From assembly GCA_016125045.1 (NCBI GenBank), contig WGML01000005.1, positions 62,001 to 126,000 on the forward strand: a stretch of 64,000 nt of DNA, given 5' to 3'. The notes below the pieces were generated by a model that saw only the letters and a program-made list of their open reading frames with translations, ran no database searches and had not been told where the DNA came from. Position numbers and translations under genes: made by a program. The stretch's first letter is position 1. Every line of letters begins with the position of its first letter. Source of the stretch: a bacterium (GTDB lineage Bacteria; Pseudomonadota; Alphaproteobacteria; Caulobacterales; Hyphomonadaceae). Shown one piece after another: positions 57,065 to 60,162 of this stretch.

Positions 57065-57424
57065 TCAGGCCGCGACCACGCGCTCCACCTCGGCCACCAG
57101 GTCCTTCAGGTGGAAGGGCTTGGACAGGACGCGCGCCTCCTTGGGCGCCGGGTGATTCTGGCTCAGCGCCACGGCCGCGAAGCCCGTGATGAACATGATC
57201 TTCATGGCCGGATCGAGCTCCGCCCCCCGCCGCGCCAGCTCGATCCCGTCAAGCCCCGGCATCACGATGTCGGTCAGCAGAAGGTCGAACACCTCGCGTT
57301 CAAGCGCCGTCAGCGCCTGGCGGCCGTCGTCGAACGCCCGCACCGAATGGCCCGCCCGCACCAGCGCGTTGGACAGAAAGCCGCGCAGGCTGTCGTCGTC
57401 TTCCGCGAGCAGGATCTTCACCAT
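57065..57424 (-). CDS. cpdR: Single-domain response regulator CpdR
   Basis: MVKILLAEDDDSLRGFLSNAL...LLLTDIVMPGLDGIELARRGAELDPAMKIMFITGFAAVALSQNHPAPKEARVLSKPFHLKDLVAEVERVVAA closely resembles Caulobacter CpdR as remembered. Confidence 0.93.
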   Translation of the reverse strand: MVKILLAEDDDSLRGFLSNALVRAGHSVRAFDDGRQALTALEREVFDLLLTDIVMPGLDGIELARRGAELDPAMKIMFITGFAAVALSQNHPAPKEARVLSKPFHLKDLVAEVERVVAA

Positions 57425-57529
57425 TCCCATCGTCCGCATCAGCCTTCCCGACATCTATGCTAGACCGTGTGCACGTCGCGGGTAAAGCCGACGTGAAGAT
57501 GCCGCCTTGACGATCCGTGCGCACCGGCA

Positions 57530-58555
57530 ATGATGCCGCTCATGACGCTGGGGTTGACCATTGCAAGCGCTCCGGGGGCGCGGCCCGGGGAGGACCCCTG
57601 GGGGCCGGTGTTCGCCATCGAGGAGCCGGTGTCCGTGGTCGCGCCGGTGGTCTTCGCCTCGCCGCATTCCGGACGCCGCTACCCGGACGTGTTTCTCGAC
57701 GCCTGCCGCGCGCCGCTCGCCGACCTTCGCCGCATCGAGGACGCCTATGTCGACCGGCTGCTCGCCGACGTCCACACCTGCGGCGCGCCGCTGATCCATG
57801 GCCTGATCGGGCGCGCCTGTATCGATCTGAACCGCGCCGAGACCGAGATCGACCCGGACATGTTCTCGGACGCGGGAACCATGTACGCCGCCGCCGCCCG
57901 GACCCCGCGGGTCGCCGCTGGGCTCGGCTGCATTCCGCGCGTCGCCCACAACGGGGCGGCCATCTATGGGCGCAAACTTGCGAAGGCTGACGCCGAGGCG
58001 CGCTTTCGGGCGGTCTACCGGCCTTATCACCGCGCGCTGGAGGCCCTGCTTCGGCGGGGCGAGGCGATGTTCGGCCGCTGCTGGCTGATCGATGTGCACT
58101 CCATGCCGGACGACGGCCCCGCGCCCGCCCGCGACCGCAACGCATCCGGCCCCGCCCTGCGCGCCGAGGCCTCCGGCGCGGACATCGTGATCGGCGATCG
58201 CTTCGGCGCGGCGTGCGGGGGTGAGTTCGCGGATCACATCGAGACCCTCTTCCGCCGCCGCGGCTACACCACCGCGCGCAACAAGCCCTACGCCGGCGGG
58301 TTTGCGACCGTGCACTACGGGCGACCCGCCCTCGGCCGGGAGGCCGTGCAGATCGAGGTGCGACGCCGCCTCTATCTCGACGAAGACGCCGTCGAGCCGC
58401 ACGAAGGCTTCTTTGCTCTGAAGGAATGCCTGACTGAGATCGCGGGGGAGATCTGCGCCTTCGCCTGCGACCGCGTTCTCGGGGAGCGTCAGGACAAGAA
58501 AAAGGCCGCGTCGGATGCCGACGCGGCCAAGGTCTTAGGGAGGAAACGCCCATAA
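57530..58555 (+). CDS. N-formylglutamate amidohydrolase family protein
   Basis: VVFASPHSGRRYPDVFL; DLNRAETEIDP; LIDVHSMP; IEVRRRLYLDE. C-terminal KKKAASDADAAK is encoded by the opposite-strand terminator hairpin. Confidence 0.92.
   Translation: MMPLMTLGLTIASAPGARPGEDPWGPVFAIEEPVSVVAPVVFASPHSGRRYPDVFLDACRAPLADLRRIEDAYVDRLLADVHTCGAPLIHGLIGRACIDLNRAETEIDPDMFSDAGTMYAAAARTPRVAAGLGCIPRVAHNGAAIYGRKLAKADAEARFRAVYRPYHRALEALLRRGEAMFGRCWLIDVHSMPDDGPAPARDRNASGPALRAEASGADIVIGDRFGAACGGEFADHIETLFRRRGYTTARNKPYAGGFATVHYGRPALGREAVQIEVRRRLYLDEDAVEPHEGFFALKECLTEIAGEICAFACDRVLGERQDKKKAASDADAAKVLGRKRP
58499..58528 (-). terminator. Rho-independent terminator (minus strand)
   Basis: GGCCGCGTCGG-CAT-CCGACGCGGCC followed by TTTTT on the minus strand. 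Confidence 0.88.
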
Positions 58556-58578
58556 GGGCAGCAGCGCCGAAGCGCCAC
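58499..58578 (-). ncRNA. Candidate alpha-r8 (MmgR / suhB-type) small RNA
   Basis: Minus strand: GCGC-UUCG-GCGC hairpin, GCCC-UUAU-GGGC hairpin, single-stranded UUUCCUCCCU (58537-58546), then 11-bp GC terminator stem and T5. Promoter-like TTGAAC-N17-TAAGAG at 58607-58612 / 58584-58589 predicts an approx. 80-nt RNA. Confidence 0.75.
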
Positions 58579-58586
58579 GACCCCTC

Positions 58587-58706
58587 TTACGCTGCAGTGC
58601 AAAAGAGTTCAAGAGCCTGCTGCTGCTTCCGGCCGCTGAGGCCAAATTGCCGCATTTTGAGGCGCTTTCTGTCCATGTTTCGGGCGGCGTCAGGTGTTTG
58701 AACCAT
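58587..58706 (-). CDS. Possible small ORF upstream of the sRNA (MVQTPDAARNMDRKRLKMRQFGLSGRKQQQALELFCTAA)
   Basis: Internal ATG of ORF-track 58587..59723 that avoids overlap with the XRE gene; no good RBS. Confidence 0.2.
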   Translation of the reverse strand: MVQTPDAARNMDRKRLKMRQFGLSGRKQQQALELFCTAA

Positions 58707-58841
58707 CTCTAATGTTGCAGCGCACAAGATCTTTCGGTGTCTAACTCGCCTTTTCGCCTGTGTTGTGGCGCGCAGCTTGCTCCTCCCCCTGCGAACGGTC
58801 TCCAAATGGCACGGGGACCCGCAAACGCGGGAGCATAAACA

Positions 58842-59240
58842 ATGGCCACAGATGTGGATATCTATGTCGGCAAGCGGCTTCGCCGACGCCGTCGTTTGCT
58901 GGGCCTCACCCAGCAGGACCTCGCCGCTCAGGTCGGAGTGCGGTTCCAGCAGATCCAGAAATATGAATGCGGCGCGAACCGGATCACGGCGAGCCGCCTG
59001 TTCAATCTGGCGCACGCCCTGAACGTCAACATCAACTACTTCTTCGACGGCCTCGCGCCGGACGGGAAACAGGCGCCGGCCAACGACTCCGCCGACCGGC
59101 TCTCGGGCGACATCCTCTCCCAGAAGGAGACGCTGGAACTCGTCCGCGCCTACTACCGGCTCGACGAACGGCCCCGCCGCCGCCTGCTCGATCTCGCCAA
59201 GGCGCTTGAATCCGGCGGCCCGGAATCGGGCGCAGCCTGA
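58842..59240 (+). CDS. XRE-family HTH transcriptional regulator
   Basis: VGKRLRRRRRLLGLTQQDLAAQVGVRFQQIQKYECGANRITASRLFNLAHAL helix-turn-helix. Confidence 0.95.
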   Translation: MATDVDIYVGKRLRRRRRLLGLTQQDLAAQVGVRFQQIQKYECGANRITASRLFNLAHALNVNINYFFDGLAPDGKQAPANDSADRLSGDILSQKETLELVRAYYRLDERPRRRLLDLAKALESGGPESGAA

Positions 59241-59358
59241 TCCGAACGGGTCGCGCCCGCGGCCCTTCGCCATCTTCCGCTCCCTAGTCGCGCTCCGGCC
59301 AAATGGTCGGGGCGCGCGGGTGTTTGCCAATCGCAAGTCTCTGCTCCATGGTCGCGCG

Positions 59359-60162
59359 ATGCTGACAGACGTCCTCGCCGCCGAACTTGAAGCGTTCGCC
59401 GAAATGTTGGCTGACGCCGCCCGCGACGTCACTTTCCGGCATTTTCGCTCGCTCGATATTTCCACTGAAAACAAGGCCTCACGAGGGTATGACCCCGTCA
59501 CGATCGCCGACCGCGAGGCCGAACGGGTCATGCGTGATCTGATCGCGCGGCGTCGCCCTGACGACGCCGTCGAGGGCGAGGAGTTCGGCTTCACGCCGGG
59601 CCGCAGCGGCTTCACCTGGTATCTTGATCCGATCGACGGCACGCGCGCGTTCGTCGCCGGCCTGCCGAGCTGGACCACGCTGATCGGCCTCGTTGCGGAC
59701 GGCCGCCCCTTGGTCGGCGTCATCGATCAGCCCTGGCTAGATGAACGTTATGTCGGCGGCCCGCACGGGGCCTTCGCGCGCATCCGGGGCGCCCGCGGGC
59801 CGATCCGCGTGAGCCGCTGCGCGGACCTCCGCGAAGCCGTGATGGCGACCACTGACCCTTATCTGTTTTCACCCTCCGAGCGCGGGGCGTTCGAGCATTT
59901 GCGGTCCACCGCGCGCCTCACCCGTTACGGGCTCGACGCCTATGGCTATGCGAGGGTCGCCGCCGGCACGATCGACATCGTCGCCGAGAGCGGCCTGAAG
60001 CCCCACGATGTTGCGGCGCTCATCCCGGTGATCGAGGGCGCGGGCGGCGTCGCTCTCGATTGGCGCGGCGAGCGGGCGGCGCTCGGCCGACAGATACTGG
60101 CGGCCGCCAGTCAGGACCTCGCCGAGCAGGCGCTGGTCGCCCTCCGGCGCTCGGCTGACTGA
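59359..60162 (+). CDS. Inositol monophosphatase / HisN-type histidinol-phosphatase family protein
   Basis: GEEFGF, WYLDPIDGTRAFVAGLPSWTTLIGL, GLKPHDVAALIPVIEGAGG motifs; ATG 59359 preferred. Confidence 0.9.
   Translation: MLTDVLAAELEAFAEMLADAARDVTFRHFRSLDISTENKASRGYDPVTIADREAERVMRDLIARRRPDDAVEGEEFGFTPGRSGFTWYLDPIDGTRAFVAGLPSWTTLIGLVADGRPLVGVIDQPWLDERYVGGPHGAFARIRGARGPIRVSRCADLREAVMATTDPYLFSPSERGAFEHLRSTARLTRYGLDAYGYARVAAGTIDIVAESGLKPHDVAALIPVIEGAGGVALDWRGERAALGRQILAAASQDLAEQALVALRRSAD

Follow-up and report, generated by a model that had tools for sequence, protein, structure and literature searches.

Organization of the locus

The window, a 64,000-nt stretch of bacterial DNA, carries on its minus strand a small RNA (sRNA) gene that converges upon, and partly overlaps, a gene of the N-formylglutamate amidohydrolase (FGase) family. 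The features of the locus are collected in Table 1. The order CpdR, FGase, sRNA, XRE-family regulator, phosphatase recurs in the family, and Hyphomonas and Henriciella records share it; the nearest named records, as judged by alignment of the XRE protein, are Hyphomonadaceae MAGs. When the FGase protein alone was used as a query on genome contigs, no relative was found.

Table 1. Coordinates of the features at the sRNA–FGase locus, numbered along the window
Feature	Position	Strand	Basis or remark
CpdR	57065-57454	-	Neighbour of the FGase gene
FGase-family gene	57530..58555	+	Pfam PF05013, 4.5e-67; overlaps the sRNA gene by its last 57 nt
alpha-r8/MmgR sRNA, predicted transcript of ~79 nt	58499..58577	-	cmscan and fold; both ends predicted, from the -10 box and the T-run
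Rho-independent terminator	58499..58528	-	11-bp stem (58528-58504), then TTTTT; compensatory changes at 5 pairs
Unpaired anti-Shine-Dalgarno core UUUCCUCCCU	58537..58546	-	Fold; invariant in A1
Hairpin 2	58547..58560	-	Fold; loop bears the opposite-strand FGase stop codon
Hairpin 1 (5' stem-loop)	58563..58576	-	Fold; both sides of 3 pairs change across 16 distinct sequences
-10 box TAAGAG	58584..58589	-	Direct reading; relatives have TAAATT/TAAAAC-like boxes
Candidate PhaR/AniA-type operator TGCACTGCA	58593..58601	-	Between -35 and -10; fits published PhaR motifs
-35 box TTGAAC	58607..58612	-	Direct reading; nearly all genus g5 relatives have a CTTGAG-like box there
Second strict PhaR-type box TGCAGCGCA	58716..58724	+	XRE start lies 126 nt downstream
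XRE-family regulator, divergent from the sRNA	58842..59240	+	Pfam HTH_3; conserved neighbour in the family
Histidinol-phosphatase-like protein, inositol monophosphatase family	59206-60162 (ORF)	+	In-frame ATG at 59359

Within the family 103 of 105 genomes have the sRNA, which was matched in 171 of the 289 genomes sampled across the class, 135 of these matches lying above the cut-off. A single copy was found in the source genome, which is estimated to be 82% complete. In some other genomes of the class (L090 and L093, on G066 and G255 contigs), three alpha-r8 copies stand in tandem within ~600 bp, with no FGase gene in the fetched flanks. Linkage of the sRNA to FGase genes is itself on record, in the passage of PMC12559287 that cites Lagares 2016.

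A member of the alpha-r8 family with a predicted promoter and terminator

A covariance search with cmscan matched Rfam RF00519 (suhB, now mmgR, and described as MmgR RNA) to the minus strand at 58566-58489, over the full length of the model (1-77), with 67.4 bits against a curated gathering cut-off of 41 and an E-value of 9.9e-12 over the window. The first-pass annotation of this DNA had proposed an alpha-r8/MmgR identity, naming a covariance score below threshold among the grounds for abandoning it, and the score upholds it. The match and the predicted transcript (about 58577-58499) differ in extent. The core 10-mer, the length of ~77 nt, the terminator and the adjoining FGase gene all agree with the published traits of alpha-r8 (PMC12559287, PMC8401924). 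Because the family, its linkage to FGase genes and its anti-Shine-Dalgarno mechanism have already been published (PMC12559287, PMC8401924), the locus counts as a further member of a well-described sRNA family, and the RNA itself is an ordinary and expected one.

The minus-strand promoter-like sequence that the same annotation had described, TTGAAC and TAAGAG separated by 17 nt, was found by direct reading, with similar boxes at the same place in related loci; it was not among the outputs of a generic sigma-70 scan. Likewise, the two small hairpins, the unpaired UUUCCUCCCU and the strong Rho-independent terminator were all recovered in the sequence and its predicted fold. In this fold UUUCCUCCCU, the defining 10-mer of alpha-r8 (PMC12559287), stands unpaired after a weak hairpin, as is required of the family. 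The folding energy has a z-score of -4.43, and none of 200 shuffles was equally stable. Among 16 distinct sequences, 8 of the 22 stem pairs change on both sides while 99.7% of cells remain paired, a level of covariation that was reached by none of 500 shuffles; structures slid along the alignment give at most one double-changed pair. We infer that the gene is transcribed, in which case the sRNA would run leftward from its own promoter and end at its own terminator.

A candidate PhaR-type operator in the sRNA promoter

The sequence TGCACTGCA, which lies within the promoter, fits YGCRNYGCR, the PhaR motif of Sinorhizobium meliloti (PMC12542648), and differs in its last letter from TGCRNYGCASMA, the motif of Bradyrhizobium (PMC6201568); it is of the TGCRNYGCA type. 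Such boxes are widespread: among 127 alpha-r8 upstream regions, for which the class loci had been chosen by highest match score, a relaxed box was present in 103, against 7.5% of flank controls, and a strict box in 84, against 1.5%, although the cross-genome counts are not independent and shared ancestry inflates all of the operator and co-occurrence numbers. The 103 comprise 63 of the 71 regions from the same family and order, and 40 of the 56 from other families. Across these boxes the TGC...GCA arms are constant and the middle letters variable, as would be expected of a protein-bound dyad. Boxes like TGCAGCGCA, with other middle letters, also lie at about -100 to -138 of the XRE gene in four genera of the family.

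The regulator and the sRNA tend to be found in the same genomes. In the class sample 147 genomes have both the sRNA and a PhaR gene (PF07879), 24 the sRNA only, 35 PhaR only and 83 neither (odds ratio 14.5, p 7e-23, subject to the inflation just noted); the number with the sRNA but without a PhaR match, here 24, is 9 at E <= 1e-6. In S. meliloti, mmgR is repressed by PhaR and its promoter carries the motif (PMC12542648), and what the present comparison adds is the breadth of the PhaR-type box across the class. PhaR probably represses the sRNA of the source genome by binding the palindrome between the -35 and -10 boxes.

The source genome encodes Hfq, PhaC, a phasin and PhaR, the last by two PF07879 genes; no strict PhaR box was found at the promoter of the phasin gene or at the PhaR genes. 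A role in polyhydroxybutyrate (PHB) metabolism, the limiting of PHB by way of phasins, has been established for S. meliloti only. For the sRNA described here such a role is suggested indirectly, by its relationship to MmgR together with the presence of PhaR, PhaC, phasin and Hfq genes and the PhaR-type operator. The phasin start pairs weakly with the sRNA, at -14.8 kcal/mol against a background of -12.7 +/- 3.2 (an energy that ignores accessibility), and regulation of the phasin by the sRNA, if there is any, may be indirect.

A TonB-dependent receptor as the predicted target

Targets were sought by pattern searches rather than by a scan of all genes. The pattern AGGGAGGAARC occurs at three sites in the source genome, namely the sRNA gene itself, the ribosome-binding site of a TonB-dependent receptor (L133/L227, G000 contig C2, ~241330) and one intergenic site. 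The last of these (L229, C6:55219) was set aside, as it lies past the end of an opposite-strand OmpA-like gene with no evident gene behind it. The receptor site, chosen as the best genome-wide pattern match, is a nearly perfect complement of the sRNA core and of one arm of hairpin 2. It forms 15 contiguous pairs with GGGCGUUUCCUCCCU, with a duplex energy of -30.2 kcal/mol that takes no account of accessibility. The 508 control starts average -12.7 +/- 3.2 kcal/mol, and none of them pairs as strongly.

This site is conserved. Of 30 related receptor loci, which range down to ~37% identity, 27 have GGGAGG just ahead of the start, whereas the same hexamer precedes the start of only ~3% of controls (4/121 window ORFs and 8/315 family ORFs). 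The Caulobacter relative already has known targets in this receptor family: compensatory mutations have shown that SisA uses the same core to repress TonB-dependent receptors (PMC12559287). With the help of Hfq, to which it would bind, the sRNA would present UUUCCUCCCU to mRNAs and cover their ribosome-binding sites, and in the circuit that we propose the best target would be the mRNA of the TonB-dependent receptor, whose repression we infer from this complementarity.

Overlap of the sRNA with the FGase gene

The FGase gene had been taken to end at ...DADAAK. This is wrong, as the frame continues ...AAKVLGRKRP and stops at 58553-58555; therefore, 57 of the ~79 nt of the sRNA are covered by coding sequence. 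The terminator is overlapped, as had been claimed, but the overlap is not with the terminator alone. The accompanying suggestion that the C-terminal tail is written by sRNA sequence was correct and reaches farther than was claimed, the tail being ...KKKAASDADAAKVLGRKRP. A literature search on C-terminal extensions written by antisense sRNAs returned nothing relevant.

The FGase frame enters the sRNA gene in the source genome and throughout one related genus (15 species), and in 15 of these 16 genomes the stop is a TAA in the loop of hairpin 2. In a member of a third genus (L002) the stop lies inside the terminator loop, and a few other genomes reach the terminator only. Nearly all other relatives have the FGase stop ahead of the sRNA core, at a distance that is 36 to 140 nt in most and several hundred nt in some. 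We would explain the overlap by loss of the usual FGase stop in this lineage, a loss that may be tolerated since the tail has its sequence fixed by the sRNA.

The first-pass annotation described the sRNA as antisense to the FGase gene, and the geometry is true: in all 108 FGase-linked loci with a callable orientation the two genes are antisense, and in none do they run in the same direction. Since this convergent order is standard in all 108, the antisense position is no evidence of cis regulation. The sRNA might nevertheless regulate the FGase mRNA mainly in cis, as an antisense RNA that pairs with dozens of bases at the 3' end of the message. In the source genome this message does hold the perfect complement to the greater part of the sRNA, and the convergent gene order is a conserved one. 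We regard this as improbable, given that in nearly all relatives the FGase gene ends before the sRNA core, that extra copies occur away from FGase genes (17 loci without FGase; SisB-D in PMC12559287), and that the conserved part consists of the anti-Shine-Dalgarno core and the stems rather than of complementarity to FGase. The same opposite-strand complementarity would also allow the 3' end of the FGase mRNA to sponge up the sRNA in the manner of CrfA of Caulobacter, a sponge known to pair with the same core (PMC12559287). CrfA, however, is a separate trans-encoded RNA, and interference is the more probable outcome of convergent transcription, so that a sponge seems very unlikely.

Lastly, the basic C-terminal tail (KKKAA...GRKRP) could be a selected feature of the protein, the match to the RNA being secondary; the GRKRP end is indeed kept in 15 of the 16 genomes of the two genera. 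Yet the letters that encode GRKRP are, on the other strand, those of the invariant RNA core, and codons within the stems change in matched pairs, which alters the amino acids but preserves the RNA stem. In one example TCG...GAC, encoding S and D, is replaced by CTG...AGC, encoding L and S, with the pairing retained. In genus g5, one species (L041) has the FGase tail read in another frame and another (L042) reaches the hairpin-2 stop only after an indel, with the sRNA intact in both. Because stem changes compensate in the RNA while altering the amino acids, and these two species differ by frame or indel, we rejected selection on the tail as protein, which has only the slightest chance of being correct; judging from these comparisons, the FGase tail appears to follow the RNA, and it is the RNA upon which selection acts.

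Proposed circuit and comparison with known systems

Our preferred reading, to which we assign a probability of roughly 0.85, is that the locus encodes an FGase-linked, trans-acting sRNA of the alpha-r8 (MmgR/SisA) type, with its own promoter and terminator, which would be repressed by PhaR and would mask ribosome-binding sites with the assistance of Hfq, the overlap with the FGase gene being lineage-specific. A broader proposal is that direct control of alpha-r8 by PhaR is ancestral in the Alphaproteobacteria, with stored PHB setting the number of TonB-dependent receptors through the sRNA, and that in one lineage of the Hyphomonadaceae a single piece of DNA has come to encode the sRNA on one strand and an enzyme's end on the other. 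This is more tentative, and we would rate its chances at somewhat under even. If true, the circuit would join two separate literatures, those on rhizobial PHB control and on the nutrient receptors of Caulobacter.

Three of the results stand out as most useful: an operator that recurs across the class, a receptor site that is conserved, and an overprint specific to one lineage. The comparative data make of an ordinary sRNA a testable circuit, in which carbon storage would be tied to nutrient uptake, and the overprinted end of the FGase gene offers a neat example, on a small scale, of protein sequence dictated by an sRNA on the opposite strand.

The closest parallel is SisA of Caulobacter crescentus (PMC12559287), which likewise has an FGase neighbour, the same 10-mer core, a weak hairpin before the core, and a terminator, and which acts by anti-Shine-Dalgarno pairing on TonB-dependent receptors, targets that are here predicted. 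The two systems differ in that Caulobacter possesses four sibling sRNAs together with the CrfA sponge, whereas one copy was found here; no shared motif has been reported upstream of SisA-D (PMC12559287), in contrast to the PhaR-type box of the present locus; and only here does the FGase frame read into the sRNA gene. With MmgR of S. meliloti (PMC8401924, PMC12542648) the sRNA shares a length of ~77 nt, a single copy and a PhaR/AniA promoter motif. The PHB/phasin phenotype, however, has been shown only in S. meliloti, whereas the best predicted target here is a TonB-dependent receptor. The agreement with RF00519 extends over the full length of the model, but the neighbour from which suhB takes its name differs: the corresponding phosphatase lies farther downstream here, and passes the NCBIfam cut-off for HisN rather than that for SuhB.
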